Assembly (NCBI RefSeq): GCF_019599145.1
Contig: NZ_CP080647.1
Coordinates: 7,254,001 to 7,318,000, forward strand
Length of the DNA stretch: 64,000 nucleotides
Direction: 5' to 3'
DNA from: Streptomyces akebiae
GTDB lineage: Bacteria; Actinomycetota; Actinomycetes; Streptomycetales; Streptomycetaceae
Of the stretch, positions 9,370 through 23,878 are shown one piece after another. The notes below the pieces were generated by a model. That model worked only from the letters and a program-made list of their open reading frames with translations. It made no database searches and was not told where the DNA came from. The translations under genes and the position numbers were made by a program. Positions within the stretch are counted from its first letter, which is position 1. Each line of letters begins with the position of its first letter.

Positions 9370-9438
9370 CAGGACACCTGCGTGCGGCGCGGGGGCGTAC
9401 CCGTTTCCTACCCGGCGCCGCTTACCGTGGAGTACGTG

Positions 9439-10098
9439 ATGGACCTACGGCGCGCCGGTACGCGCTACCCCGGTGGGGACCCGGAAGCCGGGATCGCCTC
9501 GCTGCACGCCTTCTCCTTCGGTGCGCACTACGACCCGGACAACCTGCGGTTCGGCCCGGTGATCGCCTGCAACGAGGAGCGGCTCGCGCCCGGCGCGGGG
9601 TTCGACGAGCACCCCCACAGCCACACCGAGATCGTCACCTGGGTCGTCGAGGGCGAGCTGACCCACCGCGACACCACGGGCCACGAGACGGTCGTCCGCC
9701 CCGGGGACGTCCAGCGCCTCAGTTCGGCGGGCGGGGTACGGCACGTCGAGCGCAACGACGGCTCCGCGCCGCTCACCTTCGTGCAGATGTGGCTGGCCCC
9801 GCTGGACCCGGGCGGCGACCCCGCGTACGAGATCGTGCGCGGCATCGCCGACTCCACCCCGTACGCCGTTCCCGAGGCCGGGGCCATGCTGCACGTCCGG
9901 CGGCTGGGCAGGACGGGGGAGCGGACCGCGGTGCCGGACGCGGCACGGGCGTATGTGCACGTCGTCCGGGGTGTGGTGCGGCTCGGGCCGCACGAACTGG
10001 AGCCCGGGGACGCGGTGCGGGCCGAGGACGAGAAGGGGCTGGAGCTGGTCGCCGTCGCCGCCCCGGTCGAGGTGCTGGTGTGGGAGCTGGGGGAGTGA
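9439..10098 (+). CDS. Pirin-like cupin protein
   Basis: Bicupin of the pirin/YhhW family, 219 residues. The N-terminal cupin holds the metal-binding motif HPHSHTEIVTWVVEGELTHRD (His-x-His and Glu), as in pirins that bind a divalent metal; some members act as quercetin 2,3-dioxygenases. The C-terminal cupin (YVHVVRGVVRLGPHELEPGDAV) is degenerate. The ATG at 9439 has GGAG 6 bases upstream, so the reading frame further upstream is non-coding. It is divergent from fasR and tail-to-tail with the kinase, 7 bp apart. Physiological role unknown. Confidence 0.85.
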   Translation: MDLRRAGTRYPGGDPEAGIASLHAFSFGAHYDPDNLRFGPVIACNEERLAPGAGFDEHPHSHTEIVTWVVEGELTHRDTTGHETVVRPGDVQRLSSAGGVRHVERNDGSAPLTFVQMWLAPLDPGGDPAYEIVRGIADSTPYAVPEAGAMLHVRRLGRTGERTAVPDAARAYVHVVRGVVRLGPHELEPGDAVRAEDEKGLELVAVAAPVEVLVWELGE

Positions 10099-10105: not shown

Positions 10106-11890
10106 TCAGTTGTCGGTGGGCTCCTCCGCGTTGCGCCAGATCGTGAGGTCCACGGCGACGTAGTCGCTGGGGTCGTTCTCCGGGGCGGTGCCCCGGAAGG
10201 TGACCAGCGCGATGTGGCCGGAACTGTGTACACAAAGCTGGGTGCCCTTGGAAAGCTGGGAGAGCGAGACGTCGTCGGCGTACCGGGTCTCCCCTCGGCA
10301 TGTCTTCAGGGAGCCCTTCTGGGCGTTGTTCAGCAGGACGATCTTGGCTCCCCGGCTGGCCAACGCTTCCCCGTAGACGTCGTCGTAGTAGAGGTCGGCG
10401 TCGTTGTTGTTGTCCGGGCTGCGGTCCTGGATCGGCTTCGGCGGGGAGTCTGCGAACCGGATGTAGTAGTCGAGCGGGATGTTGATCCCCTTGTACGTCA
10501 CCGGCTTCGGATCCGGAAGCGGCTTGGCGCTCACGGAGCCCGTGTCTCCGGAGCGGTTGGCGGAGTCACCCGACGAGCCCTCGAACGAACTCAGGAATGC
10601 GAAGCAACCCCCGAGTGTCATCAGGGCGGACAGCGTCCCGACGCCGATGCCCAGCCACTTGCCCGCGGTGTTCTTGGGAGGGCGTAGGGGGAGTGGGCGT
10701 GGCTGTGGAAGCGGGTGCCAGGTCTGCGGCTGCTGTGGGTGCGGTGTCTGGTGGTACGGCGGCACGGTGTTCGGCACCGACTGCGCGGCGTACGGCCCCG
10801 GGTGGGCTGGGGAGGGCAGAGGTGGTGGGACCGGCCCCGCGAACGCGGTCGGCGCCGCGTGCACCGGCGGTGTGGCCTGACCAGCGGCCCGGACGTCCGG
10901 CTGGGTCACCGGGGCGGTGGGCGGGACGGGCGCGGGCACCGCGGTCGGTGCCTCTGCCGTCTTGCTCCGCGCGGCCAGCAGCTCCGCCGACGCCGAGACC
11001 CGCCGGGTGATGTCGACGCCGATCACCTCCGGCAGCCAGGAACCGGACTGGATCAGCGGGGCGTGCGAGGCCTCCTGGCACAGTGTGATGACCTCTTCCG
11101 GCGTGGGCCGGTCCTCGGGGTTCTTCGCCAGACAGCGAGCGATGAAGCGGAGTGCGTCCGGGAGACCGGTCAGGTCCGGCTCCTCGTGGACGATGCGGTA
11201 CAGCACGGCGTGCGAGGGCCCGTCGCCGTACGCGCCGCTGCCCCGCCCCGCGTACGCCGCCACCTGACCCAGCGTGAACACGTCCGACGCGGGCGTGATC
11301 GGCTTCCCAGCTGCCTGCTCCGGTGACATGAACGCCGGGGTGCCGATGGAAACGCCGGTGCCGGTCAGGGCAGTCGCGTCGGCGGCGCGCGCGATGCCGA
11401 AGTCGATGACGCGGGGCCCGTCGGCGGCGAGCAGCACGTTCGAGGGCTTCAGGTCGCGGTGCACGATGCCGGCGGAGTGGATCACCTTCAGGGCCTCGGC
11501 TACCCCGGCGAGCAGCAACAGGACAGAGGAGACCGGCAGCGCGCCGTGCGCGGCGACCGCCGTCTGCAGCGACGGACCGGGCACATAGGCGGTGGCCAGC
11601 CACGGCTGGGCGCCCTCGGTGTCGTAGTCGATGACCGGCGCCGTGTGGAGGCCCTGTACGCGCTGGGCAGCCTGCACCTCCTGTCGGAACCTGCGGCGGA
11701 ACTCGGGGTCCTCGCTCAGCTCCGGCCGGATCGTCTTGAGAGCGATGGGGTGCCCGCCAGGCGTGTACGACAGATACACGGTGCCCATGCCGCCCGAGCC
11801 GAGCCGCGCCGCGAGCCGGTAGCTCGCCACGGTCTTGGGATCGCTGTCGTCCAGCGGACGGAACTGCCCGCCCGGTCGTACCTCGCCCAT
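10106..11890 (-). CDS. Membrane Ser/Thr protein kinase
   Basis: Hanks-type (PknB-like) receptor kinase, 594 residues. The kinase domain (about 25-280) has the glycine loop LGSGGMGTVY, the ATP Lys in ALKTIRPE, the catalytic loop HRDLKPSN and a DFG metal motif. A long Pro/Ala/Gln-rich juxtamembrane linker follows (about 310-400), then one membrane span (GIGVGTLSALMTLGGCFAFL) and an extracellular sensor region of about 160 residues with no recognisable PASTA repeats. The ligand is unknown. Its start has GGGGGA upstream. The upstream palindrome at 11925-11936 may be an operator. Confidence 0.9.
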   Translation of the reverse strand: MGEVRPGGQFRPLDDSDPKTVASYRLAARLGSGGMGTVYLSYTPGGHPIALKTIRPELSEDPEFRRRFRQEVQAAQRVQGLHTAPVIDYDTEGAQPWLATAYVPGPSLQTAVAAHGALPVSSVLLLLAGVAEALKVIHSAGIVHRDLKPSNVLLAADGPRVIDFGIARAADATALTGTGVSIGTPAFMSPEQAAGKPITPASDVFTLGQVAAYAGRGSGAYGDGPSHAVLYRIVHEEPDLTGLPDALRFIARCLAKNPEDRPTPEEVITLCQEASHAPLIQSGSWLPEVIGVDITRRVSASAELLAARSKTAEAPTAVPAPVPPTAPVTQPDVRAAGQATPPVHAAPTAFAGPVPPPLPSPAHPGPYAAQSVPNTVPPYHQTPHPQQPQTWHPLPQPRPLPLRPPKNTAGKWLGIGVGTLSALMTLGGCFAFLSSFEGSSGDSANRSGDTGSVSAKPLPDPKPVTYKGINIPLDYYIRFADSPPKPIQDRSPDNNNDADLYYDDVYGEALASRGAKIVLLNNAQKGSLKTCRGETRYADDVSLSQLSKGTQLCVHSSGHIALVTFRGTAPENDPSDYVAVDLTIWRNAEEPTDN

Positions 11891-11924
11891 CGTTTCCCCC
11901 GAGGCCCTGCGCCTGCTGTGGCGT

Positions 11925-11936
11925 GCGTGTACACGC
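11925..11936. promoter_or_regulatory. Palindrome upstream of the Ser/Thr kinase gene
   Basis: GCGTGTACACGC is a perfect 12-bp palindrome, 35 bases before the kinase ATG, where a repressor site would sit. No regulator is assigned and chance cannot be excluded in such GC-rich DNA. Confidence 0.3.
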
Positions 11937-12003
11937 GTGCAGGGGGAGGCTATACGAAAGGACCAACTGCGCTCCTACAGGGCGCGGTTACCCTCCGACC
12001 TCG

Positions 12004-12026
12004 GCGAGCACCGCGTCCGTGAACGG
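12004..12026. repeat. Left copy of 23-bp direct repeat bracketing the defence island
   Basis: Identical over 23 bases (starting GCGAGCACCGCGTCC) to 23054-23076. Read on the minus strand it encodes PFTDAVLA, and the frame continues to a stop as FTDAVLAEVGG, like the C-terminus FTDAVLAELRG of the serine hydrolase at 23038. This is therefore a remnant of the 3' end of such a gene, now alone between the kinase and hsdR. Similarity fades outside the core but EAMTVPFTDAVLAE versus EAWTPFTDAVLAE is still recognisable. The surrounding gap 11891-12199 holds no other gene. Confidence 0.75.
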
Positions 12027-12199
12027 CACGGTCATCGCCTCCGTGACCGTACGCGGAGGCACGAACCCGGGCGAGCTGCTGTTGGGAAACGACGGTCAGG
12101 TGAATGACGCGGTGGTAGGGCCGCAGGGTCGGCCTGATCCCTTTGGTCGATTCCGCTGTTCGGGCACCGTTGTCAGAGGCATGAAGTACACCTGTCTTT

Positions 12200-14701
12200 A
12201 TGGGGATCGATGCGTACCAGTTGAACGAGGACGAGACGTGCAAGAGGTTCGTCCTTCCTGCTCTGCGGGCAGCGGGGTGGAGTGAGAAGCAGATCCGTCC
12301 GCAGTACCGGATCAACGACGGCCGGTTGGTACCGACGCGCAGGCGCCACAAGCGGGGGGCGGCACTCGCCGCTGACTACGTGCTCGAGTACATCGCCGAT
12401 GTGCCGATCGCTGTGGTGGAGGCCAAGCGCTACCGGCTGAGCGAGGAGAACGGGGTGGAACAGGCGCGCCGTTACGCGCGCAAGCTGGGCCTGTCCTTTG
12501 CGTACGCCACCAACGGCCGCAACATCGTGGAGATCGACTTCAGCGGAGACAAGCCTGTCATCCGGCCTGTCGACCGGTTCCCGTCGCCCGACGACCTGTG
12601 GGCGCGCTTCCTGCGCGATCAGGGCGTCCGTGGCACCGAGGCGGGCGAGGAGTTGATGTCGGCGCCGTACGACTACACCCTCCGGAACACCGACAACTCC
12701 GTGAAGCGCCCGCGCTACTACCAGCGGCTCGCCATCACCCGGGCACTCGCGGCGCTTGCCCGTGACGAGCGCCGCATCCTGCTGGTACTGGCCACCGGGA
12801 CGGGCAAGACCATGCTCGCACTCCAGTTGGTGGCCCGGCTCTCCAAGGCTCCGGGGGCCTTCGGTGGACGCAAGCCCCGGGTGCTCTACCTTGCCGACCG
12901 CAACATGCTGGTCGACGACCCAAAGGACCGCTACTTCCTGCCGGTCTTCGGCGAGGACGACGTCCACAAGATCGGTGGCGGCGAGGCCAAGCGCGGTCGG
13001 AAGATCTACTTCGCGCTCTATCAGTCACTGGAACAGGGGGAGGCCCAGGCCGAGTTGTTCCGGGAGTACGAGCCGGACTACTTCGACCTGGTCATCGTCG
13101 ACGAGTGTCACAGGGGCAGTGCGAGCAGCGACTCTCGATGGCGCAAGGTACTGGAGCACTTCAAGCCCGCCGTGCAGATCGGGCTGACCGCTACGCCGAT
13201 CAGGGACAGCGGCAAGAAGACCGACACCTTCGAGTACTTCGGAAACCCCGTCTACACGTATTCGCTCCGAGACGGCATCGAGGACGGTTTCCTCTCGCCC
13301 TACCGGGTGCGCAGGGTCCGGCTGAACGTGGACGTGGAGGGCTACCGTCCCGAGCCGGGCAAGAAGGACGTCTACGGCCGGGAGATCCCCGACGATCTCT
13401 ACGGGCCCAAGGAGTTCGAGCGGGTCATGGTGATCCTGGAACGGACCGAGACGGCGGCGCACTATCTCATCGACTACCTTCGGAAGAACGCCGAGGACGG
13501 GCGGTTGGGCAAGACGCTCGTCTTCTGCGAGAACAACGAACACGCCGGCCGGATGCGCACCGCGTTGCACAACATCGCCTCCGAGGAGGTCGCAGTCCTG
13601 CCGGACTTCGTCAAGCGGATCACCAGCGCCGACGTGTCCGACGCGGGGGAGTCCCTGGAGGAGTTCCGGAAGGCGGACTCCAGCCAGCCGGTCATCGCCG
13701 TGACGTCCAAGCTGCTGTCAACCGGTGTGGATCTGCCTGCGGTGCGGAACGTGGTGCTGTTCCGGCGGATGGCCTCCATGCCCGAGTTCAAGCAGGTCAT
13801 CGGGCGCGGCACCCGGCTGTGTCCGGAGATCGGCAAGGAGTCGTTCGACATCATCGACTTCGTGGAGGCGACCCGTCTCTTCGAGGACAAGGCGTTCGAC
13901 GGCCCACCCCTGAAGCTGCTCCAGGAGACGGCTGACGAGCAGGGTGAGCTGGTGGATGTCGAGGACATCACTCCGCCGGCCGAGGAGATGGGTGGCGATG
14001 ACGGGGACTCGGTCGCCGAGCCGCAGGCGGAGTACGAGCAGCAGGAGGGCGGCTCGTTCGACCTGGGCGGGGACGACGGCGACACGGTCACCGACCAGGA
14101 CGAGGTCGATCGCATCCAGGCGCGAGGCAAGCGCTACCGGGTGCGTGGTGTCGATGTCTACAAGTTGGGCGAGCGGCGCTATCAGCTCGCTGACGACGGT
14201 GTGACGATGCGGCTGGTGAGCGTCGAGCAGTGGGTGCACAACCAGGTGCTCGAACTGGATCTGGACCCGGCCCAGTTGCGTACCCAGTGGGCACGGGCCA
14301 AGAGCCGTGCCGTCCTCATGGAAGCGCTGCGGGAGGCCGACATCGACGTGGAGGAACTGCCGGAGGAACTGGGCAAGCCGGACGTGGACCCGGTGGACCT
14401 GCTGGTCAGCGCGGCCTGGGAGGGACTCGCCGTCGTGAGTCGGGATGAGCGGCTGACCTGGTTCCGCCGGGAACACGGAGATTTCCTGGACTCCTTCGGG
14501 GAGCAGGCTCGTGAGGTGTTGGAGGCGATGCTGGTGAAGTTCTCCGAAGCGGGCTCGCCCCAGCTGAAAGTAGACACGCTGAAGGTTCCGCCCTTCGACG
14601 CGATGGGCCGTGTGGTGGACCTGACCCTGCGGTTTGGTGGGCCCCGCGAGGCGCGCGAGGCCATAGACCAGCTGGCCGCCCGGCTGCTGTCGGTCGTGTA
14701 G
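12200..14701 (+). CDS. hsdR: Type I restriction enzyme, R (motor/nuclease) subunit
   Basis: Restriction subunit of a type I system: translocates DNA and cuts it when HsdS recognition sites are unmethylated. The N-terminal nuclease core is visible (Asp59 with Glu74-Ala-Lys76 in AVVEAKRY). The helicase follows: Walker A ATGTGKT near residue 200, Walker B DECH near 299, LTATPIRD, and motif VI QVIGRGTRLCPE. An acidic linker (about 590-640) leads to an EcoEI-type C-terminal domain. At 833 residues it is shorter than EcoKI HsdR and resembles the EcoEI class. No RBS precedes the ATG, so the start is less certain. Its M and S partners lie 1.6 kb downstream, beyond abiEi/abiEii. Confidence 0.92.
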   Translation: MGIDAYQLNEDETCKRFVLPALRAAGWSEKQIRPQYRINDGRLVPTRRRHKRGAALAADYVLEYIADVPIAVVEAKRYRLSEENGVEQARRYARKLGLSFAYATNGRNIVEIDFSGDKPVIRPVDRFPSPDDLWARFLRDQGVRGTEAGEELMSAPYDYTLRNTDNSVKRPRYYQRLAITRALAALARDERRILLVLATGTGKTMLALQLVARLSKAPGAFGGRKPRVLYLADRNMLVDDPKDRYFLPVFGEDDVHKIGGGEAKRGRKIYFALYQSLEQGEAQAELFREYEPDYFDLVIVDECHRGSASSDSRWRKVLEHFKPAVQIGLTATPIRDSGKKTDTFEYFGNPVYTYSLRDGIEDGFLSPYRVRRVRLNVDVEGYRPEPGKKDVYGREIPDDLYGPKEFERVMVILERTETAAHYLIDYLRKNAEDGRLGKTLVFCENNEHAGRMRTALHNIASEEVAVLPDFVKRITSADVSDAGESLEEFRKADSSQPVIAVTSKLLSTGVDLPAVRNVVLFRRMASMPEFKQVIGRGTRLCPEIGKESFDIIDFVEATRLFEDKAFDGPPLKLLQETADEQGELVDVEDITPPAEEMGGDDGDSVAEPQAEYEQQEGGSFDLGGDDGDTVTDQDEVDRIQARGKRYRVRGVDVYKLGERRYQLADDGVTMRLVSVEQWVHNQVLELDLDPAQLRTQWARAKSRAVLMEALREADIDVEELPEELGKPDVDPVDLLVSAAWEGLAVVSRDERLTWFRREHGDFLDSFGEQAREVLEAMLVKFSEAGSPQLKVDTLKVPPFDAMGRVVDLTLRFGGPREAREAIDQLAARLLSVV

Positions 14702-14727
14702 GAAGAGGTCTCCGAAGCGAAGCGTGA

Positions 14728-14752
14728 AAAACTAAAAGAATGCTTTAGTTTT
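14728..14752. promoter_or_regulatory. AT-rich inverted repeat upstream of abiEi (putative AbiEi operator)
   Basis: Perfect 9-bp arms AAAACTAAA (14728-14736) and TTTAGTTTT (14744-14752) with a 7-base spacer, in conspicuously AT-rich DNA. AbiEi antitoxins are known to repress their own operon by binding inverted repeats in the promoter, so an operator is likely. It could alternatively be a weak terminator for hsdR. Confidence 0.55.
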
Positions 14753-14780
14753 GTGCAAGATGGAGTCGTGTAACTGAAGT

Positions 14781-14809
14781 CAACTTTGAGTTTTTCGCTC
14801 TGCTAGAAT
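14781..14809 (+). promoter_or_regulatory. Putative abiE promoter, leaderless start
   Basis: A good -10 TAGAAT (14804-14809) with a weak -35 CAACTT (14781-14786) at 17-base spacing. The -10 ends only 6 bases before the GTG of abiEi at 14816, so transcription would start at or next to the start codon and give a leaderless mRNA. No ribosome binding site is visible to contradict this. Confidence 0.45.
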
Positions 14810-14815
14810 GATGGA

Positions 14816-15415
14816 GTGCTCAGAGACCGTACGGACAGTCGCGCAGCCCTCTGGCGGACCGCCGCTGGGCAGCGCGGCTACTTCACCGCCGCGCAGGCGC
14901 TTGAAGCCGGATATTCCTACCAGGCTCAGCGCTATCACGCCCAGCATGGCAACTGGCTGGTGATCGACCGAGCCCTCTACCGGTTCCGGGAGTTCAATGA
15001 CCTGCCAGGCGAGGGTGATGAGCAATTGGTGCGCTGGTCGCTGTGGAGCAAGGGGAGGGCGGTCGTCTCGCACGCCACCGCGCTCGCCGTCCATGATCTC
15101 GGTACGGCCAACCCCTCCCGTATCCACCTCACCGTGCCGCACGGCTTCCGCCAGAAGTCGGACGCGGTGATCCTGCACCGTGCCGAGCTGACGGAGTCGG
15201 ATGTCGAGGATCGGACGGGGTACCGGGTGACGGCCCCGCTGCGCGCGATCGCGGAGTGCGCGGCGGACGGTGACGACCAGGACGTAATCGACGGGGCCGT
15301 GGCCGACGCACTGGAGCAGGGCATCGTGACCCGCCGAAAGCTGCTGCATGCGGCTCAACTGTTGGGCGCACGTGCCGAACTGGGTGTGGAGCGGGCATTG
15401 GGGGCACTATCGTGA
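14816..15415 (+). CDS. abiEi: Type IV antitoxin, AbiEi family
   Basis: Antitoxin of an AbiE system, 199 residues. The N-terminal winged-helix region (QRGYFTAAQALEAGYSYQ) fits DNA-binding autorepression. The rest carries the AbiEi antitoxin fold (YRFREF, VSHATALAVHDLG, IHLTVPHGFR, RVTAPLRAIAE). AbiEi is known to counter AbiEii without binding it, and to repress the operon. The stop overlaps the toxin start by 4 bases, so the pair is translationally coupled. It sits inside the type I R-M locus between hsdR and hsdM. Confidence 0.88.
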   Translation: MLRDRTDSRAALWRTAAGQRGYFTAAQALEAGYSYQAQRYHAQHGNWLVIDRALYRFREFNDLPGEGDEQLVRWSLWSKGRAVVSHATALAVHDLGTANPSRIHLTVPHGFRQKSDAVILHRAELTESDVEDRTGYRVTAPLRAIAECAADGDDQDVIDGAVADALEQGIVTRRKLLHAAQLLGARAELGVERALGALS

Positions 15416-16293
15416 CCGGCCGCTACCGCGACGCCACGGACCTGCGCCGGGCGCTGGAGGCGCGGCTGAAACACGACGCGGACGAGTCCGGCACCGACCT
15501 GGCCCGTCGCCGTCGCCTTGTCGTTTTCGATCGCATGGCGGCACGCCTCGCGGAGGACCCGGCCGGCGGCTGGGTCCTCAAGGGTGGGGCCGCGATGGAG
15601 TTCCGCCTGACCGGCCGCGCCCGCACCACCAAAGACCTGGATCTGGCCTTGCGGCCCGAGGGCGGCTCAGACGCCGATGGCGACGAAGTCCGGGAGCTGC
15701 TGATCGAGGCCCTGTCCGTCGACCTCGACCGGGACTGGTTCCGCTTCCGTGTCGGTGTGCCCGTCTCGTTGACCGCAGACACGGCAGGGCGGGGCGGCTG
15801 GCGGTTCTCCGTCGAGGCCCACCTCGCGGGGAAGCTCTTCGCGGGCGTCCGTGTGGACGTGGTGGACCGGGGCGAGGAGATCGCGCGGACGGAGCGCCTT
15901 CCGCTCCCCAACTCCCTGGCGTTCGCCGGAACTCCGCAGCGGACGGTGGAAGCCGTCGACCGCCGCCAGCACTTCGCGGAGAAGCTGCATGCCTTCACCC
16001 GTGACTACGGTGACCGGCCCAACACGCGGGTCAAGGACCTGGTGGACCTAGTCCTACTGACCGAGGATGGCTTGACTGGGGACACGGCGCTGGTGTCGGC
16101 CGTACGGCACGTCTTCGCCGTCCGAGACACCCACGATGTCCCGGACGAACTCCCCGATCCGCCGCCGCTGTGGCGTGACACCTACCCGGACCTGGCGAGG
16201 GAGCTGACCACGGACATCCCGCCGACGCTGGACGCGGCACTCGCGCTGGTGCGTGGGTTGTGGGCGGGGGCCCTCGCGGATGAAGCACGTTGA
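15412..16293 (+). CDS. abiEii: Type IV toxin, AbiEii/AbiGii nucleotidyltransferase
   Basis: Nucleotidyltransferase-fold toxin of the AbiE system, 293 residues. The motif GGAAMEFRLTGRARTTKDLD (about 57-76) gives the Gly-rich loop and the Asp-x-Asp metal site. The conserved FAEKLHAF and RVKDLVDLVLL stretches follow. Members of this family transfer nucleotides, in mycobacterial homologues to tRNA, and cause growth arrest or phage abortive infection. The GTG start overlaps the antitoxin stop. hsdM follows after 57 bp, so read-through from the abiE promoter could express M and S. Confidence 0.9.
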   Translation: MTGRYRDATDLRRALEARLKHDADESGTDLARRRRLVVFDRMAARLAEDPAGGWVLKGGAAMEFRLTGRARTTKDLDLALRPEGGSDADGDEVRELLIEALSVDLDRDWFRFRVGVPVSLTADTAGRGGWRFSVEAHLAGKLFAGVRVDVVDRGEEIARTERLPLPNSLAFAGTPQRTVEAVDRRQHFAEKLHAFTRDYGDRPNTRVKDLVDLVLLTEDGLTGDTALVSAVRHVFAVRDTHDVPDELPDPPPLWRDTYPDLARELTTDIPPTLDAALALVRGLWAGALADEAR

Positions 16294-16350
16294 CTCATTG
16301 ACTCATTACCCACCTCTTCCCCACCGAACAGAGAGACCGGCATAGCTGAC

Positions 16351-17859
16351 ATGGCAGCGACCACGAAGAAAACGGCGGAGAAGTCCCCCGCTACATCCCA
16401 GGCGCGCCTCGCGTCCCTGATCAAGTCCGCGCGCGACACGATGCGCAAGGACGCGGGGATGAACGGCGACCTGGACCGTTTGCCCCAGCTCTCCTGGCTG
16501 CTTTTCCTCAAGGCGTTCGACGAGCGTGTCGAACAAGAGGGCGAGGCCCTGGACCCGGATGGTTATCGGCGGGCGATTGAGGAGCCGTACCGGTGGGAGG
16601 ACTGGGCTACCAACCCGGACTTCAGCGGCAACGAGCTGAAGACGTTCGTCAACGAGAAGCTCATCCCGCACCTGGCGGGACTCGTCGGTGACGACGCAGA
16701 GGACCCGCGCAACGTCATCTCGACCATTTTCAAGAACGTCGTCAACCGCATGCAGTCGGGCACGCTGCTACGTGACCTGGTCAGCATTGTGAACCAGATC
16801 CACTTCGTCTCGACCAACGACATCCACACCATGGCGTTCGTCTACGAGTCGATCCTCAGGGAGATGCGGGATGCGGCCGGCGACTCGGGTGAGTTCTACA
16901 CCCCGCGCCCGGTCAACCGGTTCATGGTCCAGCAGTCCTTCCTGGAGCTGGACGAGGCGATCCTCGACCCGGCGAGCGGGACGGGCGGTTTCCTGGTCCA
17001 GGCGTACGAGGACTTGAAAGGTCGGGTCAACACGGACACCCAGCGCAGGCGGCTGCACAAGAACATCCGGGGCATCGAGAAGAAGCCGCTGCCGTATCTG
17101 TTGGGCGCCATGAACCTGCTGCTGCACGGGATCGACACACCGCACGTCACACGTGCCAACTCGTTGCTGGAGATGCGGAACTTTAACGCCTCCGACAAGG
17201 TGGAGGTCGTTCTCACTAATCCGCCCTTCGGCGGTGAGGAGGAATCGACGGTCGTCAAGGCGTTCCCGGACGGCTTCCGGACCCAGGAGACGGCCTGGCT
17301 CTTCCTCTACTCGATTCTCGATCAGCTCAAGCTGGGTGGTCGGTGCGCGATCGTTCTGCCGAACGGCAGTCTGTTCGCCACGGGGGAGAACTCCATCGGC
17401 GCGAAGATCAAGAAGAAGCTGATGAAGGACTGCAACCTGCACACGATCGTCCGCCTCCCGCAGGGCGTTTTCGCGCCCTACACGCAGATCCCGTCCAACA
17501 TTCTTTTCTTCGAGAAGACCGGTCCGACGCAGGAGGTCTGGTTCTACGAGATCCCGCTGCCGGAGGGGCGGCGGGGCTACACCAAGACGAAGCCGATGCG
17601 GATCGAGGAGTTCGAGCCGTGCGTCGATTGGTGGGGCGGCAAGGAGCGTGAGGGCCGCGAGGCGGGTGAACAGGCGTGGGTCGTCCCCGCATCAGACATC
17701 ATCGCCTCCGGCTTCAACCTCGATATCGCCAACCCGCACATGGGTGACGAACTGGCCCACCGGACGCCGGAAGAACTGGTGGACGAGCTGGTGCAGACGG
17801 AGACGGAGATCCTTGAATTGCTGAAGGAACTGCGTGCGGGTCTGGGTGAGCAGCGATGA
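16351..17859 (+). CDS. hsdM: Type I restriction-modification, DNA methyltransferase subunit
   Basis: Adenine-N6 methyltransferase of the type I system, 502 residues. The order is an HsdM N-terminal helical domain (about 15-150), the SAM-binding motif LDPASGTGGFL (about 206) and the catalytic NPPF (about 290, preceded by EVVLT). It works with HsdS to methylate the target site and with HsdR to restrict. Its stop overlaps the hsdS start by 4 bases (ATGA). It has its own upstream GAGAGA, but no clear promoter is seen in the 57 bp after abiEii. Confidence 0.95.
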   Translation: MAATTKKTAEKSPATSQARLASLIKSARDTMRKDAGMNGDLDRLPQLSWLLFLKAFDERVEQEGEALDPDGYRRAIEEPYRWEDWATNPDFSGNELKTFVNEKLIPHLAGLVGDDAEDPRNVISTIFKNVVNRMQSGTLLRDLVSIVNQIHFVSTNDIHTMAFVYESILREMRDAAGDSGEFYTPRPVNRFMVQQSFLELDEAILDPASGTGGFLVQAYEDLKGRVNTDTQRRRLHKNIRGIEKKPLPYLLGAMNLLLHGIDTPHVTRANSLLEMRNFNASDKVEVVLTNPPFGGEEESTVVKAFPDGFRTQETAWLFLYSILDQLKLGGRCAIVLPNGSLFATGENSIGAKIKKKLMKDCNLHTIVRLPQGVFAPYTQIPSNILFFEKTGPTQEVWFYEIPLPEGRRGYTKTKPMRIEEFEPCVDWWGGKEREGREAGEQAWVVPASDIIASGFNLDIANPHMGDELAHRTPEELVDELVQTETEILELLKELRAGLGEQR

Positions 17860-18995
17860 CTCTCACCGATTACGCTGTGGGCGATGTGATCACCCTGGTG
17901 CGCCGGCCGGTCCTTCCCGAGGAGGGCAAGGAGTACCGCGAGATTGGTATCCGTTCCTTCGGCAACGGGATCTTTCATAAAGATCCCGTTGCGGGCCGGG
18001 AGATCATTGCCAAAAAGGTGTTCAGTATTGAACCGGGCGACCTTGTTTTCAGCAACATCTTCGCGTGGGAGGGCGCAGTTGCGCTTGCTGCCGACAGTGA
18101 AAAGGGTATGATCGGTTCACACCGGTTCATGACGTATTGCGTTAACCAGGAGATTGCGGATGTGCGGTATTTGCTTCCGTACTTTTATGGAGGGCCGGGG
18201 CTGGATGTGATCCGCCAGGCGTCTCCAGGATCGGCCGGGCGTAACCGGACTCTCGGTATCAAGACGTTTGGTGTAAAGCGCGTGGTTCTCCCTAATCTGG
18301 CTGAGCAGCGTCGCGTCGCTGACAAGCTCGACGCAGCGATGGACCGCATGGCCTTTGCGTTGTCTCTGCGTGCCAAGGCCAAAAAGACGTCGTTGGCTCT
18401 CTACGATTCCTTGCTCGGCCAAGTGAAGCATTGGAGAGATCTCGGCGATGGGTTGAATCTCAGTATTGAGGAAGTAGCTGTCTCGGGAGACGATAACTAT
18501 CCGATGGCAGGTGTCTACGGGTTCGGTCGAGGTCTCATCGACCGCGGAACGATTTCTGGTTCCGATACCAAATATTCGAAGTTTCACCGGCTTCAGAAAG
18601 GCAAATTGGTCATGAGTCGCCTCAAGGCTTTTGAAGGGGCATTGACTATGGTTCCGGGGGAGTTCGAAGGGCGTCACGTCTCCCCGGAGTTCCCTACTTT
18701 TGCTGTTGATCCGGATGTTCTGGATCCTGCCTATCTGGGACACTTGTGTAAGTGGCCGCGCTTCTGGGCACTCCTCAGCAAGGAGTCCAAGGGCGTCGGC
18801 GCAAGGCGAGAACGAGTAGCAGCGTCGCGCTTGCTCGCGACGAGCGTCCCATTCCCTGACTTGCACTCGCAGCGCGAGATCGCAGCTCAACTCAGCAAGG
18901 CTGAAGCCGCAGATCAGCTTGGCCGTCAACAGGATGCAGTTTTGACCTCACTGCGCCCCGCACTACTCGACGCCGCTTTCGGAGGACGCTTGTAG
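17856..18995 (+). CDS. hsdS: Type I restriction-modification, specificity subunit
   Basis: Determines the bipartite DNA target. Two target-recognition domains are seen: about 1-130 and about 185-330, each followed by a conserved helical spacer (PNLAEQRRVADKLDAAMDRM and PDLHSQREIAAQLSKAEAAD). At 379 residues it is at the short end for the family. The codon choice is less GC-rich than in hsdM or the flanking core genes (for example AAA, TTT and ATT codons are frequent around 17950-18720), a common sign of TRD exchange. The recognition sequence cannot be read from the sequence. Confidence 0.9.
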   Translation: MTLTDYAVGDVITLVRRPVLPEEGKEYREIGIRSFGNGIFHKDPVAGREIIAKKVFSIEPGDLVFSNIFAWEGAVALAADSEKGMIGSHRFMTYCVNQEIADVRYLLPYFYGGPGLDVIRQASPGSAGRNRTLGIKTFGVKRVVLPNLAEQRRVADKLDAAMDRMAFALSLRAKAKKTSLALYDSLLGQVKHWRDLGDGLNLSIEEVAVSGDDNYPMAGVYGFGRGLIDRGTISGSDTKYSKFHRLQKGKLVMSRLKAFEGALTMVPGEFEGRHVSPEFPTFAVDPDVLDPAYLGHLCKWPRFWALLSKESKGVGARRERVAASRLLATSVPFPDLHSQREIAAQLSKAEAADQLGRQQDAVLTSLRPALLDAAFGGRL

Positions 18996-19007
18996 CCTCA
19001 CCCCAGC

Positions 19008-19679
19008 TCACTCGCGCGAAACCCGCCGCCACCCCCCATCCGTAACCACCACATGGTCCAGGAACCGCAGACCGACCGCCGCCGCCCCCGCCGCCAGGCG
19101 GGTCGTGGCGCGGCGGTCGGCCTCGCTTGGGTCGGTGCAACCCGTGGGGTGGTTGTGGGCGACGCCGAACGACGTGCCGCCCGCCGCGAGGACCAGGGCC
19201 AGGACGTCGCGGACCGGGAGCAGGCTGCGGTCCGTCGCGCCTTCCGTGAGGACGGTCGTGCGGATGACCGAGCCCGACCCGTCGCAGACGACCACGACGA
19301 CGCGTTCGTGTCGCAGGCCGTGGAGGTGGGGAGCCGCGATCGTCGCCAAGTCGGCCGATCCGCGTACCCGTTGGCGGGCTGAGGACGGTGGCGGCGCCAC
19401 TCGGCGGCCCAGCTGGAACGCCGCCGCGACCCGTGCCGCCTTAGCCGGACCGATCCCGGCCAGGCCCGCCGCCAGCTCATGCGCGGGGAGCCGGGACAGT
19501 GCGTACAAGCCGCCGTGCCGGTGGATCAGCTGCCCGGCCAGCTCCACCGCATCCTGGCCGGGGAGCCCCGCGCCCAGCAGCAGCGCCAGAAGCTCACGAT
19601 CGGACAACGCCTCCGCGCCGCGCGCCAACAGCCGTTCGCGTGGTCGGTCCCGGGCCGGTACGTCCCGCATCCGTACCAC
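19008..19679 (-). CDS. radC: RadC-like JAB-domain protein
   Basis: 223 residues: an N-terminal UPF0758 helix-hairpin-helix region (PRERLLARGAEALSDRELLALLLGAG, GIGPAKAARVAAAF) and a C-terminal JAB/MPN-type metalloprotease fold with the motif HNHPTGCTDPSEAD (His-x-His and Asp). Despite the name, a role in DNA repair is unproven and such genes cluster with mobile and defence DNA. It follows the DUF262 gene on the same strand with a 14-bp gap and converges on hsdS. Confidence 0.88.
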   Translation of the reverse strand: MVRMRDVPARDRPRERLLARGAEALSDRELLALLLGAGLPGQDAVELAGQLIHRHGGLYALSRLPAHELAAGLAGIGPAKAARVAAAFQLGRRVAPPPSSARQRVRGSADLATIAAPHLHGLRHERVVVVVCDGSGSVIRTTVLTEGATDRSLLPVRDVLALVLAAGGTSFGVAHNHPTGCTDPSEADRRATTRLAAGAAAVGLRFLDHVVVTDGGWRRVSRE

Positions 19680-19693
19680 CGCCCCACACCCCC

Positions 19694-21397
19694 TCAGTCC
19701 ACCGAGTCGCGGTCGAGAGGTTCTGAGTCAGTGGCTACCGGGGGGTCGGGCTCCGGGTCGGGCGAGGGGGCGAACGGCTCTGCGTCTGCGCTGCTTCCCG
19801 CCGCCGAGCCGATGAGCTCCATGAGCCGCCGGTGCAGTGTCTCCGAGCGGGCCCGCAGAAACGCGTCGTAGTCGTCGCGCAACGCGGCCTGGTACGCGTC
19901 CTCTTCGATCAGGCAGGTGCGCAGCCGTTCCCGCAGCTTGTCCTCGCCGTGCCAGTTGGCCAGGTCCCTCAAGTAGGCGGAGGGACGGCGGTCGGAGATC
20001 CAGTTGTTGGTGATCGCGCTGAGCATGATCAGGTTGCCGCAGACGTTGTCCTTCCCCGCCTTCACCCCCTCCTTCCTCAGGTACGCACGCGGGAAGAAGT
20101 GGTGGAACTGCTTCCCGTTCTGCCAGGAGAGCGCGTCGGCCACATCGATGACGAGACCCGTGTTCAGATCGACGGGCTTCTCGTACGACATCAGGAGCAC
20201 CAGAAGCTTGCTGGGCGCGTTCTGCCGGGAGAACTGCGCGCGCTGCCACAGGACGCTTCGAGGCAGTGCGGCCGCTGTCTCGACCTCCGTCGAGCGGCCC
20301 GCCGCGAACTCCGTCACGGCCGTCAGGTCAGGCCCCATCTGGGACTCACGCCAGCCCTTGAAGTACTCGCCGCTCGCCGTCAGCCAGAACCAGCGCGTCA
20401 CGGCCTCGTACTGGGCCGCCGTCGGCTTGGGCAGTTGCCTGAACAGCTCGACCAGGACGGCGAACTGGTTGTAGTACGGCAGCGCTTCGGCCTGTGGGGT
20501 GTGGATCTGGGTGGAGAGGAAGTCGACTGCCCGCGCAGCCGCCTTGCCCGCGTCGCTGACGGCTGCCTGGAGCTGCTGACGGTCCAGCCCGCGCAGTTCG
20601 TGGATGGATTTGGTGGAAAAGCCGAAGCCCGCTGCCGCCGAGATCGTCCGCAACATGGTCTTGGCGTCGACCCGGCCGTACTTCTTGGCGTCGAGGACCT
20701 GGAGAAGCTGCTCGATCTCGTCCTTGAGGTCGAAGTCCTTCGACCAGGTGCCGGCCCGGATCAGATCGACGATGTCCATGGACGTGCCCGTACTGTTGAT
20801 CCGCTCGAAAATCCGGGCCGAGTCCTCTTCGGAGACGTCGAGCAGTGTCACCAACGGCACCTGATAGTGCGCGAACTGTTCGCTCAGCGCTTGTGCGCGA
20901 CGCTGAAGCTCGGCGCTCGGCTTGTCCCGCTGGATCCACGACAGGATCGCGCCGACCGAGGTGAGATCCCGGACCGGGATGATGTGCGGCCCTGTCGGGG
21001 TCTCCTCCGTGAGGTGCAGGAACTCCTCGCGCTCCAAGTCGTACGCGATCTCCCAGATCGCCCCGGAGCCGTGCAGCGCGCCGACCAGGCTTGCCAGTCG
21101 CTGCTGACCGTCGAGGACGTAGTGCACCGGGGCGCCCTCGTGCTGCGGCACGGTGTCCAGGCCCGCGATCTCGTGTCCGCTGGCCAACTTGGCCGTTGTG
21201 CGCCACATGAGCAGGCTGCCGATGGGGTAGTTGCGGCGCACTGAGTCGAGCAGATACAGGATCTGTTGCGGGGTCCAGACGAACGCCCGCTGGAACTTGG
21301 GTAAAACGATGTCGCCGCTCAGGACCCGCGAAGCGAGTGAGGTGATCGGTGCGATCGTCGGCTCGGGCGCGCGCATCTTCGCCGATGACGTCCCCAT
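19694..21397 (-). CDS. DUF262 and DUF1524-like protein (GmrSD/SspE-type)
   Basis: 567 residues. The N-terminal DUF262 region (about 10-210) has the ParB/sulfiredoxin-like motif VLDGQQRLASLVGAL, used in relatives for nucleotide hydrolysis. A helical middle follows. The C-terminal part (about 430-520) resembles DUF1524, an HNH nuclease: FHHFFPRAYL with its His, then NLIMLSAITNNWISDRRP. This architecture is that of single-chain GmrSD-type enzymes that restrict modified DNA, and of SspE. It fits the defence setting. The exact modification sensed, if any, cannot be told. Confidence 0.75.
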   Translation of the reverse strand: MGTSSAKMRAPEPTIAPITSLASRVLSGDIVLPKFQRAFVWTPQQILYLLDSVRRNYPIGSLLMWRTTAKLASGHEIAGLDTVPQHEGAPVHYVLDGQQRLASLVGALHGSGAIWEIAYDLEREEFLHLTEETPTGPHIIPVRDLTSVGAILSWIQRDKPSAELQRRAQALSEQFAHYQVPLVTLLDVSEEDSARIFERINSTGTSMDIVDLIRAGTWSKDFDLKDEIEQLLQVLDAKKYGRVDAKTMLRTISAAAGFGFSTKSIHELRGLDRQQLQAAVSDAGKAAARAVDFLSTQIHTPQAEALPYYNQFAVLVELFRQLPKPTAAQYEAVTRWFWLTASGEYFKGWRESQMGPDLTAVTEFAAGRSTEVETAAALPRSVLWQRAQFSRQNAPSKLLVLLMSYEKPVDLNTGLVIDVADALSWQNGKQFHHFFPRAYLRKEGVKAGKDNVCGNLIMLSAITNNWISDRRPSAYLRDLANWHGEDKLRERLRTCLIEEDAYQAALRDDYDAFLRARSETLHRRLMELIGSAAGSSADAEPFAPSPDPEPDPPVATDSEPLDRDSVD

Positions 21398-21487
21398 TGC
21401 GTACCCCCTGATCGCAGGACCCGACAGCTGGAACAGCTGCGAGACCGATCGTAGGGGGCACCACTGACAATCGAACGAGCCTGCCTT

Positions 21488-21682
21488 CTACCGGAGCCCG
21501 TCCACGAACGCCCGCCAGGCGTCAAGGCCGACGATCAGGACAGCGCCGCTGACGTTCTTGCTGTCGCGCACGGGGACGGTACCGGGGAAGCCGTCGGCCA
21601 CCTCGACACAGTCGCCGCCGGTGCTTCCGCTGTAGCTGGACTTACGCCACCGCGCGTTCTCCAGGTGCGGGCTGTTCTCCAT
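21488..21682 (-). CDS. DUF397 domain-containing small protein
   Basis: 64 residues with the hallmarks WRKSSYSGSTGGDCVEVAD and VPVRDSKNVSGAVLIV, and a C-terminal AWRAFVDGLR. DUF397 proteins pair with the WhiJ-type XRE regulator encoded directly upstream, and such pairs have been described as regulators, and in some cases as toxin-antitoxin-like, in Streptomyces. Its start overlaps the end of the XRE gene by 41 bp, so the two are translationally coupled. Confidence 0.9.
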   Translation of the reverse strand: MENSPHLENARWRKSSYSGSTGGDCVEVADGFPGTVPVRDSKNVSGAVLIVGLDAWRAFVDGLR

Positions 21683-22490
21683 AACGCTCCTCCATCACGC
21701 GGGTGATCAGTGTCGCCGAATCCTCAACGGAGAGAGCGGCGGCCTGGAGATGAGCGTAACGGCGTGCGGCTTCCCTGATGGTCTCAGGGTTGGCGGTCAT
21801 ATGACCGGAGATGAGGTCCTCCGTGTAGATGATGTCTGGGTCACTATCGAAGCGAAGAAGGTTGAACGCGCCGTCCAGGCTCGTGTGTTCACCGGCCCTG
21901 AACGGCAACACCTGGATCCGCATCCACCGGTGCTCGGCGAACTCCAACAGCCGGGCCAGTTGCCCTCGCATGACCTCCCGGCCACCGACGGGCCGGTGCA
22001 GTACGGCCTCGTCCAGGATCGCCCAGGCCAGCGGGGGCTGCTCCCGCTCCAGGATGCGCTGGCGCTCCATCCGGGCCGCGACCAGCCCGTCGAGATCGTC
22101 GGGCATGCCGGTGGCCAGCACCGCCCGCGCGTACTCCTCCGTCTGCAGCAGTCCATACACCAACTGTGCCTGGTACGTGGAGATGTACGTGGCCTTCGCC
22201 TCCATCTCCGCGTACGGCTGGAACCAGTTGGGCAGTTGACTGCGGAGCACGAGGCCGATCAGTCGGGAGAACACCCCGTCCGTGCCGAGCGCCGCGTCCA
22301 CCCGCTCGGAGAAGTCGCGGGTGGGAATCTTCTTCGTGGTCTCGATCTGACCGACCAACGAGCCTGTGCAGAAGATGATCTCGCCGAGCTGGCCCTGCTT
22401 GAGGCCGTGCGCCTCGCGCTGTCGGCGCAACTCCCAGCCGTAGTAGTCGAGCGGGGAAGCGCTGGGGTCGAGTGATTGGATGTTGGCCAC
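21642..22490 (-). CDS. XRE-family regulator with DUF5753 (WhiJ-like)
   Basis: 282 residues: N-terminal XRE HTH (LKQGQLGEIIFCTGSLVGQIE, about 25-50) and a C-terminal DUF5753 sensor domain (ATYISTYQAQLVYGLLQTEEYARAV). The GTG at 22490 (VANIQSLDPSASPLDYYGWEL) has GGAGG 8 bases upstream and is preferred over a TTG at 22511. It is transcribed with DUF397 and divergently from the ATPase gene. The repeats at 22535-22559 may be its binding region. Confidence 0.9.
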   Translation of the reverse strand: MANIQSLDPSASPLDYYGWELRRQREAHGLKQGQLGEIIFCTGSLVGQIETTKKIPTRDFSERVDAALGTDGVFSRLIGLVLRSQLPNWFQPYAEMEAKATYISTYQAQLVYGLLQTEEYARAVLATGMPDDLDGLVAARMERQRILEREQPPLAWAILDEAVLHRPVGGREVMRGQLARLLEFAEHRWMRIQVLPFRAGEHTSLDGAFNLLRFDSDPDIIYTEDLISGHMTANPETIREAARRYAHLQAAALSVEDSATLITRVMEERYGEQPAPGERAVA

Positions 22491-22534
22491 TGCGGTACCT
22501 CCGGCTTCCAACGCCTCGTGGCGTTCGTTTCTTT

Positions 22535-22559
22535 GCGTAGTCGAGCGTAAGCGAAGCGT
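22535..22559. promoter_or_regulatory. Triple GCGT direct repeats between XRE and ATPase genes
   Basis: GCGT occurs at 22535, 22545 and 22556, that is every 10-11 bases (one helical turn), in the short divergent intergenic region. This spacing suggests cooperative binding by the adjacent XRE protein on one face of the helix. No -10/-35 pair is unambiguous. Confidence 0.35.
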
Positions 22560-22573
22560 TGCACTCTGGTGAT

Positions 22574-23014
22574 GTGAATCACGTAACCGATCCGTCGACG
22601 GCGGACATGACGGACATCGAGAACGAGTACTGCGCCGAGTTCGCGCTGGGCGAGCACTCGGCTCGGCATCTTCGCCGCATTCTGCGGCTCTGCCTCACCG
22701 GCGCGGGCATGCCGGAGGTGGTCGACGCTGCCGAGCTGGCGCTGACAGAGCTCGTTGCCAACGTCGTCCGGCACGTACCAGATCGCCGCTGCCGTATCTG
22801 TTTCCTGCTCCGACGCGGCGGCGTGCGGGTGGAGATCGCCGACAGTTGCTCGCGACTGCCCGTACCTGCAACCGGAGACGCACTCGCCGAAGGCGGGCGT
22901 GGTCTGCTCCTCGTCGAGGCGGTCACCGACCGGTGGGGGGTGGAGCCGTACCCCGACAGGAGGGGCAAGACGGTGTGGTTCGAGTGCCTGGCCAAGGCGT
23001 CGGGCGGAGGGTGA
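22574..23014 (+). CDS. Anti-sigma-factor-like ATP-binding protein (HATPase_c_2)
   Basis: About 146 residues of the RsbW-like GHKL kinase family. The N box is ELALTELVANVVRHV and the G-box-like stretch is GGRGLLLVEAVTDRWGV. Such proteins often accompany XRE/DUF397 pairs in Streptomyces. A sigma-factor partner is not encoded nearby. The start is uncertain: GTG at 22574 or ATG at 22607, neither with a strong RBS. It converges on the serine hydrolase gene, 23 bp apart. Confidence 0.85.
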   Translation: MNHVTDPSTADMTDIENEYCAEFALGEHSARHLRRILRLCLTGAGMPEVVDAAELALTELVANVVRHVPDRRCRICFLLRRGGVRVEIADSCSRLPVPATGDALAEGGRGLLLVEAVTDRWGVEPYPDRRGKTVWFECLAKASGGG

Positions 23015-23037
23015 GGCCCCCGGTGGTCAGAAGTACC

Positions 23038-23859
23038 TCAGCCCCGCAGCTCCGCGAGCACCGCGTCCGTGAACGGGGTCCACGCCTCGACCGCCCACGG
23101 CCCGAACGCCCGGTCCGTCAACGCGACGCACGCCAGTCCGGCGACGGGGTCGATCCACAGGAACGTCCCCGACTGCCCGAAGTGCCCGAAGGTCCCCGGC
23201 GACGACGAAGTGCCCGTCCAGTGCGGCGACTTGGAGTCCCGGATCTCGAAGCCGAGCCCCCAGTCGTTGGGGTTCTGGTGCCCGTAGCCCGGCAGGACGC
23301 CCTTCGTGCCCGGGTACTGCACGGTCATCGCCGCCGCGACCGTCCGGGGGTCCAGCAGCCGGGGCGCCTGCACCTCGGCGGCGAACCGCACCAGGTCCTC
23401 GACGGTCGAGACGCCGTCCTTCGCCGGGGAGCCGTCCAGCGAGGTGGACGTCATCCCGAGCGGTTCGAGCACCGCCTGCCGCGCGTACTCCGCAAACGGG
23501 ATGTCCGCCGCCTTGGCCACATGGTCCCCGAGCACCTCGAAACCGGCGTTGGAGTACAGCCGCCGTTCCCCGGGCGGGGCCGTCACCCGGTGCTCGTCGA
23601 AGGCCAGCCCCGAGGTGTGCGCCAGCAGATGCCGCACGGTCGACCCCGCCGGCCCCGCCGCCTCGTCCAGCTCGATCGCCCCCTCCTCGTACGCGACCAG
23701 CACGGCGTACGCGGCGAGCGGCTTGGTGACCGAGGCCAGCGGGAAGCGGTGCCCGAGGGGTCCGTGGGTCCCGAGGACGGTGCCGTCCGCCCGCACGACA
23801 GCGGCGGCGGCGGTGGGAACCGGCCAGTTCTCGATCAGGGCGAGGCTCTGCAGTGACAT
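23038..23859 (-). CDS. Serine hydrolase, beta-lactamase/class C-like
   Basis: 273 residues of the beta-lactamase/penicillin-binding fold. The SxxK motif is SVTK (in PLASVTKPLAAYAV), a YSN motif follows (RRLYSNAGFEVLG) and HxG-like residues occur near the end. No signal peptide is seen, so a cytoplasmic esterase or peptidase is more likely than a true beta-lactamase. The ATG at 23859 is used; a GTG two codons upstream is possible. Its last codons contain the right copy of the island's 23-bp repeat. Confidence 0.85.
   Translation of the reverse strand: MSLQSLALIENWPVPTAAAAVVRADGTVLGTHGPLGHRFPLASVTKPLAAYAVLVAYEEGAIELDEAAGPAGSTVRHLLAHTSGLAFDEHRVTAPPGERRLYSNAGFEVLGDHVAKAADIPFAEYARQAVLEPLGMTSTSLDGSPAKDGVSTVEDLVRFAAEVQAPRLLDPRTVAAAMTVQYPGTKGVLPGYGHQNPNDWGLGFEIRDSKSPHWTGTSSSPGTFGHFGQSGTFLWIDPVAGLACVALTDRAFGPWAVEAWTPFTDAVLAELRG
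23054..23076. repeat. Right copy of 23-bp direct repeat bracketing the defence island
   Basis: Same 23 bases as 12004-12026, here inside the 3' end of the serine hydrolase gene (codons for PFTDAVLA). Position in the last codons of an intact gene is what is expected where an element integrates into a gene end and restores it. Confidence 0.75.
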
Positions 23860-23878
23860 GCCCACGAGCCTAAGCGGC

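Follow-up and report, generated by a model that had tools for sequence, protein, structure and literature searches.

A 23-bp direct repeat at the edges of a Streptomyces restriction-modification island is probably a scar of exchange between neighboring gene ends

We analyzed a 64-kb stretch of a Streptomyces chromosome (the window; all coordinates are positions within it) in which ten cargo genes lie between a pirin family gene (pirin) and a protein kinase gene (kin) on one side and a serine hydrolase gene (hyd) on the other. A 23-bp direct repeat at the edges of this island is probably the scar of DNA exchange between neighboring gene ends, and not the signature of a dedicated mobile element. 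We consider it likely that the hyd-pirin interval is a recombinase-free exchange hotspot and that the island spread by recombination in the flanking genes, through one homologous and one illegitimate joint.

RESULTS

The repeat and the island

The original prediction, made from the same DNA, placed a 23-bp repeat at both island edges and its right copy in the final codons of an intact hydrolase gene. Both statements hold: the copies match exactly in direct orientation, and the right one lies within the end of hyd (Table 1). The window contains just five maximal exact direct repeats of at least 20 bp, this one among them. The left copy translates as FTDAVLAEVGG followed by a stop codon, and the repeat is the best-conserved portion of a left-over hyd end.

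Table 1. Features at and around the island, with positions in the 64-kb window
Feature	Position	Strand	Evidence or remark
Pirin family gene (left conserved neighbor)	9421..10098	+	PF02678 in enclosing frame 8692-10098
Ser/Thr protein kinase (kin)	10106..11890	-	PF00069
hyd-kin spacer	11891..11987	-	Collinear with uninterrupted S. ipomoeae hyd-kin spacer
hyd remnant	11988..12056	-	Residues ~174-183 fused in frame to final codons; TAA stop at 11988-11990
23-bp repeat, left copy	12004..12026		
Pirin 3' tip, island-carrier type	12070..12103	+	hsdR-side alignment into intact pirin 3' ends of carriers; stop codon at 12101-12103
hsdR, type I restriction subunit	12200..14701	+	PF04851, PF08463; PADLOC REase_I 6.1e-182
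AbiEi antitoxin-like	14816..15415	+	PADLOC AbiEi 2.7e-65; no Pfam match
AbiEii nucleotidyltransferase	15412..16293	+	PF08843
hsdM, type I methyltransferase	16351..17859	+	PF02384
hsdS specificity subunit	17856..18995	+	PADLOC Specificity_I
RadC-like	19008..19679	-	PF04002
GmrSD N-terminal (DUF262) protein	19694..21397	-	PF03235; PADLOC PDC-M55C 3.6e-77
DUF397 (BldB-paralogue-like)	21488..21682	-	PF04149
HTH-DUF5753 (WhiJ-like)	21642..22511	-	PF19054, PF13560
HATPase (AbaA-like)	22559..23014	+	PF13581
23-bp repeat, right copy	23054..23076		Adjoins the putative homologous breakpoint
hyd, intact serine hydrolase (beta-lactamase family; right conserved neighbor)	23038..23865	-	PF00144

The type I restriction-modification genes hsdR, hsdM and hsdS are all present, with hsdS the most variable gene among the strains that carry the island (31-58%). 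The earlier label of a defense island fits the restriction, Abi and GmrSD-type genes but not the entire cargo: the RadC-like protein had no PADLOC match, and the HATPase, HTH-DUF5753 and DUF397 genes (3 of the 10 island genes) look, by their domains, like a developmental-regulator trio.

A composite scar left of the island

The left copy had been assigned to an isolated hydrolase 3' remnant. The remnant is real and belongs to no separate gene, a case the original prediction had raised; however, the description understated the scar, in which a hyd 3' piece with an internal gap abuts the 3' tip of a pirin gene. The weak similarity reported beyond the core is also genuine, although it comes from further inside the gene: the next 30 nt (12027-12056) are hyd-like and match a region ~243 nt deeper, reading PRTVTEAMTV where hyd has PRTVAAAMTV, in an in-frame fusion to PFTDAVLAE. 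A 60-nt stretch of the remnant scored 20 against the window's own hyd, a score reached by 0 of 3000 random 60-mers from the window (best, 19), and 27 against the highest-scoring hyd gene overall, with 0 of 300 above 19.5. Among 64 intervals of at least 30 nt (93 loci), an HMM of the hyd 3' end returned a low E-value in the window only, and its shuffled control gave one match, with an E-value of 0.22. The 3' tail of the remnant differs from that of intact hyd.

In comparisons with three other carriers, the alignment upstream of hsdR runs on into the 3' end of an intact pirin gene (to 12053 in G394, 12075 in G387 and 12083 in G013). The pirin tip resembles carrier pirins and is unlike the resident pirin; it is only ~34 nt long, and an HMM of the pirin 3' end did not score it in the window. 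From these alignments, we infer that the tip was joined illegitimately to the hyd remnant at ~12057-12070; they place the joint within this range and not to the base, because its parents lie outside our sample.

Affinities of the flanking genes

Intact hyd looks chimeric in sequence comparisons, with a body of the S. scabiei clade and a 3' tail like that of island carriers. Both the identity profile and the 3' alignment place the shift in affinity within the final ~30 nt; this is a single case with few informative sites. Few nucleotides define the breakpoint, given that AELRG, the donor-like tail, occurs at 18 of 88 loci and is the most frequent C-terminus overall. We considered the resident pirin as a chimeric witness as well and rejected it. 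Its 60-nt identity profile is mostly nearest the S. scabiei clade and native-like up to the stop codon (four-fold-site identity to MNU76, 84%); therefore, pirin supplies no left breakpoint. The kinase protein is 65-67% identical to S. scabiei-clade kinases, 78% to those of L071 and L073, and 86% to that of S. ureilyticus over 317 aa.

Versions of the island in other genomes

In five other genomes (G013, G394, G387, G222 and G081), the hyd-pirin interval holds a version of the island in the same orientation. The boundaries of these versions differ from those in the window, falling at the pirin stop in G387 and G394 and at the kinase 3' end in G013. At four-fold sites, the window and G013 are 90% identical in hsdR and 88% in gmrSD, compared with 65% in hyd, 62% in pucR, 62% in pirin and 76% in fabH. 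For G394, G387 and G081, hsdR identity (78%, 74% and 70%, respectively) exceeds that of hyd and pucR and is level with that of fabH (75%, 75% and 72%), and hsdM stands at 65-70% throughout. By this comparison, the excess similarity of the island over its flanks is clear for G013 only. The island is therefore itself mosaic, and some of the sharing may be old. The closest island copy is that of G013 and the closest kinase alleles lie elsewhere; therefore, no donor strain can be named.

The hyd-pirin interval across Streptomyces

We found hyd in all 199 sampled Streptomyces genomes, each with a single match at E <= 1e-60. In 71 of the 80 named loci, hyd and pirin are both present and converge; the distance between their ends ranges from 6 bp to ~9 kb and exceeds 1 kb in 29 of these loci. 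Cargo differs among the closed intervals of L082, L098 and L074. The original prediction had pointed to strains in which a single hydrolase 3' end adjoins the kinase without an island, and to other cargo at the same gene end. Both exist. In S. ipomoeae (L069), the site is unoccupied, and one hyd 3' end runs directly and continuously into kin. In G163, L073 and L071, an HTH-DUF397 pair lies between hyd and a hyd scar shorter than that in the window, so scar length varies between strains. By itself, the G163-group remnant is not significant with the hyd 3'-end HMM (E-value of 0.83), and its identification rests on collinearity.

DISCUSSION

Competing explanations

According to the original prediction, DNA had integrated into, or been exchanged at, a protein-coding gene's 3' end. 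Exchange is supported by the unoccupied site and the other cargo; site-specific integration is not supported. Such integration would involve an attP bearing a hydrolase 3' end, which restored the gene and displaced its old end, with the recombinase since lost or supplied in trans. It would account for an exact repeat that flanks the island, a restored gene end, an old hyd tail next to the kinase and the existence of an unoccupied site. We nevertheless regard it as improbable. The original prediction had noted the lack of an integrase, and a search of the strain's own genome for PF00589 and PF00239 agrees: the 280 kb around the locus contain neither, and the nearest such gene is 286 kb away. 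Carriers G387, G394 and G013 have different boundaries, scar lengths vary, and the similarity left of the core runs into an internal part of hyd and a pirin tip, a pattern not expected of an att site. Lastly, we scanned the 80 named loci, each with the strain's own core (those of L141 and L143 were misread because of an overextended reading frame). Over the downstream 10 kb, or as far as the contig reached, every second match had at least 5 of 23 mismatches, and we rejected the core as a reused att site. The scan cannot tell short scars from chance: in L073, the top match (7 mismatches) is its actual scar, that in L071 lies elsewhere, and collinear alignment alone revealed both scars.

The meeting of pirin and hydrolase remnants between intact neighbors is what a central deletion would leave after tandem duplication of hyd, or of the whole pirin-to-hyd segment, had the middle copies been lost and the island come to lie between copies by chance. 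This course of events also seems a long shot, given a pirin tip of the island-carrier type, a remnant tail that differs from that of the intact gene, and one hyd match per genome. Arrival by transposition or on an insertion sequence would explain a direct repeat at both island ends as an unusually long target duplication of 23 bp. We find this highly implausible: a search limited to the ten island proteins found no transposase domain, and, unlike a target duplication, the repeat sits in a coding end with extra, non-adjacent homology to the same gene.

Exchange through flanking genes

We therefore favor recombinase-free exchange in the hyd-pirin interval. The two genes converge, so DNA entering between their 3' ends breaks no operon. 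Other strains hold the island in this interval, and it would spread when incoming DNA recombined in the flanking genes. A homologous joint within the final ~30 nt of hyd would have given the resident hydrolase its new 3' tail; at the illegitimate joint, the incoming pirin tip, attached to the island, would have met the inside of a kinase-attached hydrolase 3' piece. The polarity and order of these events are conjectural, as are RecA strand exchange at one joint and end joining through Ku-type NHEJ at the other (the genome has two Ku genes). A 243-nt in-frame deletion within the remnant may have followed. A point against this reading is that a hydrolase piece was added and not replaced, which would require either that a remnant was already there, as it is in G163, or that a second molecule took part. 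The other option in the original prediction, recombination between paralogous gene ends, was nearer the truth in having gene ends recombine. However, because hyd has a single match per genome, these ends look orthologous and would come from other strains.

A further reading, which we hold tentatively and consider rather unlikely, casts the hyd 3' end as a recurrent landing point, used independently at least twice (by the island in the window and by the HTH-DUF397 pair of the G163 group), with cargo carrying the tips of neighboring genes as recombination handles that repair the host gene. If true, cassettes would be exchanged at this site with no recombinase, or the site would bear the trace of an unrecognized recombination activity.

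Under the favored reading of exchange through flanking genes, the locus would show, joint by joint, how a defense island passes from host to host with no integrase involved, and why a neat direct repeat at the end of a gene does not have to be an att site. In Streptomyces genomes, the hyd-pirin interval is readily located and is therefore a practical place to hunt for cargo, such as defense genes and a polymorphic toxin. It also suits tests of what share of the gene exchange in the genus passes through conserved neighbors.

Comparison with known systems

Homology-facilitated illegitimate recombination is said to go back to de Vries and Wackernagel in 2002. As outlined in a later account (PMC2884548), one incoming end is joined by homology and the other illegitimately, in transformable species. 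The locus described here likewise appears to combine one homologous joint (with few informative sites) and one between unrelated sequences; in contrast to that work, the evidence here is a fossil joint. Hoff et al. 2018 (PMC5869714) found five insertions, ranging in size from 30 bp to 18.8 kb, at break-healing sites in S. ambofaciens. That NHEJ-associated capture involved induced breaks and endogenous DNA, whereas here the counterpart is the pair of Ku genes.

The cargo resembles type I restriction-modification systems with an AbiE pair: AbiEi-AbiEii lies inside the operon of hsdR, hsdM and hsdS. It differs in that the convergent radC and gmrSD genes go along in the carriers found, with activity being predicted from sequence. 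As in the abaA-whiJ-bldB paralogue clusters (PMC10294661), HATPase, HTH and DUF397 genes are adjacent; here, they form the hyd-adjoining part of the cargo and are not known as a defense system.

The locus is best read as a further case of an already known type of integrase-free exchange hotspot. In the hotspots characterized by Oliveira et al. 2017 (PMC5635113), conserved flanks likewise enclose a region of high turnover with no integrase nearby, and flanking genes bear signs of recombination. Our use of "hotspot" denotes variable cargo between conserved genes, as distinct from the statistical criterion given there. Unlike that survey, the present analysis traces one locus to its joints, one of which appears to be non-homologous and keeps the tips of both flanking genes.

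Two broken gene ends meet at the left boundary of the island

The original prediction of a 23-bp direct repeat flanking the island was correct: the copies are exact and form one of just five maximal exact direct repeats of at least 20 bp in the window. The right copy lies within the final codons of the serine hydrolase gene (hyd), whose product belongs to PF00144. The left copy lies inside a remnant reading PRTVTEAMTV-PFTDAVLAEVGG to a stop, in which the PRTVTEAMTV part corresponds to hyd about 81 codons upstream of its present position. Alignment of the remnant with the window's own hyd scored 20, a score reached by none of 3000 random 60-mers from the window (best, 19); with the best-matching hyd gene of the whole set the score rose to 27, and none of 300 random 60-mers exceeded 19.5. 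Beside the remnant and oppositely oriented is a pirin 3' tip, into which the alignment from upstream of hsdR extends; it is the end of the pirin gene that adjoins the island in other strains. The left boundary is therefore the meeting point of two broken gene tips.

Elsewhere in the window there are two exact direct repeats, 41 and 43 bp long, whose common spacing of 742 suggests a partial tandem duplication.

Coordinates of features in the window and in loci of other streptomycetes
Feature	Source	Position	Strand
Resident pirin gene	Window	9421-10098	+
Kinase gene	Window	10106-11890	-
Left hyd remnant	Window	11988-12056	
Left repeat copy	Window	12004-12026	
hsd-abiE-radC-gmrSD unit	Window	12200-21397	
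hyd	Window	23038-23865	-
Right repeat copy	Window	23054-23076	
41- and 43-bp repeats	Window	36881-37870	
GmrSD-like gene, two matches	L184 (G081)	13791-15501	
Pirin 3' tip	L072 (S. tailanensis)	15152-15240	
hyd-pirin interval	L082 (S. poonensis)	12847-17781	
AbiEi-AbiEii pair	L094 (Streptomyces sp. SM1)	5808-7282	

Proposed joints at the hyd and pirin ends, and an unoccupied site

Window hyd is nearest to the S. scabiei clade (best overall, strain MNU76, 95.8%), with identity in 60-nt segments staying at 92-100% as far as nt 780. Past the common core (the repeat sequence) and GCGGAG, the tail of window hyd and the bases just beyond it instead track the island carriers G387 and G394. Clade hyd ends EVG[KN][SG]V in the six island-free records checked. 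The AELRG end of window hyd is the commonest C-terminus in the set (18/88), and the claim of a tail switch therefore rests on the clade contrast and the bases after the stop. On the left remnant the tail is of a third kind, EVGG, and its layout is nearest to the spacer of S. ipomoeae and genome G163. The pirin gene beside the kinase is clade-like as far as its stop; the pirin tip on the island is not.

Gene order differs among strains: hyd, kinase, pirin without the island in the S. scabiei clade (G320 and S. scabiei record L065 counted once); hyd, kinase, island, pirin in G013; and the island directly between hyd and the pirin stop in G387 and G394. MNU76 seems to retain the kinase's last bases alone, as an apparent stub just 3' of hyd and before pirin, pointing to probable loss of the kinase in that strain. 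Both an island-free strain and other cargo, looked for on the strength of the original prediction, were found. In S. ipomoeae, hyd end, stop, spacer and kinase are uninterrupted, and over 193 nt this stretch is 74% identical to the left side of the window. In G163 and loci L073 and L071, an HTH-DUF397 pair separates hyd from an 18-nt hyd scar, and beyond the scar come the same spacer and kinase (78-79% across 170 nt). Relatives of the window's kinase allele at the DNA level (E <= 1e-60) were few, in 11/392 genomes, window counted, with G163 the best match (76%).

Island carriers and evidence for transfer

One island strand encodes hsdR, abiEi, abiEii, hsdM and hsdS; the other encodes radC, a GmrSD_N protein, DUF397 and HTH-DUF5753, with a HATPase gene next. 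Carriers were detected by a left-junction search of 392 genomes and then via the GmrSD protein, present at E <= 1e-200 in 9/392 (window counted). The unit, in which radC and gmrSD converge on hsdR, the AbiE pair, hsdM and hsdS, likewise occurs in 9/392 genomes. hyd and pirin flank the island in six of the nine (window, G013, G394, G387, G081 and G222, whose contig starts within pirin); G318, G063 and G182 contain the hsd-radC-gmrSD unit with no hyd within the retrieved stretch. Across carriers, hsdS variability is far above that of hsdR. No match was obtained for the AbiE pair in G394, AbiEii in G318, the HATPase in G222 or HTH-DUF397 in G081.

The GmrSD-like gene of G081 appears as two separate matches, as though split over two frames. 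In S. tailanensis, HATPase-HTH-DUF397 is followed, without an hsdR match, by a pirin 3' tip of the type found in island carriers; this tip may be what a lost island left behind.

At four-fold sites, window and G013 are 90% identical in hsdR and 88% in gmrSD, hsdM (65%) being the exception; the corresponding values outside the island are 65% for hyd, 62% for both pucR and pirin, and 76% for fabH. Against G394, G387 and G081, respectively, hsdR (78, 74 and 70%) is above hyd (55, 58 and 54%) and pucR (57, 57 and 48%) but level with fabH (75, 75 and 72%). These contrasts therefore make cross-lineage transfer well supported for the G013-type island and only suggested for the others.

Proposed gene-end exchange and the att-site alternative

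We propose two joints, a homologous one in hyd and an illegitimate one between the pirin tip and the hydrolase piece, which together would account for both remnants, the new hyd tail and the repeat. PMC2884548 describes joining by homology at one end and illegitimately at the other, and PMC5869714 reports DNA capture by Streptomyces end joining; the S. akebiae genome has two Ku genes. The island may have entered a strain in which a hyd scar already adjoined the kinase; in the other order, a piece carrying hyd and kinase may have entered a strain already holding the island. Layouts resembling each intermediate exist (G163-like and G394-like, respectively).

Alternatively, the repeat could be an att site. 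Against this, a search of the own genome found no PF00589 or PF00239 gene near the island, scar lengths and island boundaries vary between strains, and no reuse of the core was found among 80 named loci (best 80 of 555). A recombinase may have acted in trans or come from another family. The original prediction, which allowed either integration into or exchange at the hydrolase 3' end, is thus half right: gene-end exchange is supported, and att-site integration is not.

The hyd-pirin interval across Streptomyces

hyd has a single match per genome (E <= 1e-60) in 199/199 Streptomyces and is directed toward pirin, itself beside pucR and fabH. Among the 80 named loci (best 80 of 555), 71 contain both genes, with gaps, taken between alignment ends, of <=226 bp in 38, 227-1000 bp in 4 and >1 kb in 29 (largest, 8,992 bp). 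Pirin was not found within the retrieved stretch in the other 9/80; a contig end lies <=3.3 kb from hyd in five of these and <=8.6 kb in one, and 10 kb beyond hyd is covered in L072, L084 and L103. Cargo of closed intervals includes a TPR protein and subtilase (L098), an MMPL transporter (L074) and a large gene resembling polymorphic toxins, with PT-HINT and an RNAse A-type end (L082); in stretches where no pirin was found, genes next to hyd include those for an ATPase and a TPR protein (L084). PADLOC, run on nine proteins from such stretches, gave a match for the subtilase at 1.9e-25 and a weak one for the ATPase at 1.2e-8.

L094 has an AbiEi-AbiEii pair that shares 80-83% identity with that of the window and is located about 4 kb from hyd, with no hsd match above filter in the retrieved contig.

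Comparison with known systems

Among the top-ranked papers of an incomplete literature collection, we found no description of the hyd-pirin interval, which does not establish novelty. The locus records gene-end exchange at an integrase-free hotspot, as an instructive fossil, and does not represent a new mobile element. Hotspots that lack mobile elements and show recombination in the conserved genes flanking them have been described (PMC5635113). XRE-DUF397 is the subject of PMC6262351 and PMC10364602, and the island's DUF397, HTH-DUF5753 and HATPase genes resemble the abaA-whiJ-bldB paralogue clusters described in PMC10294661.
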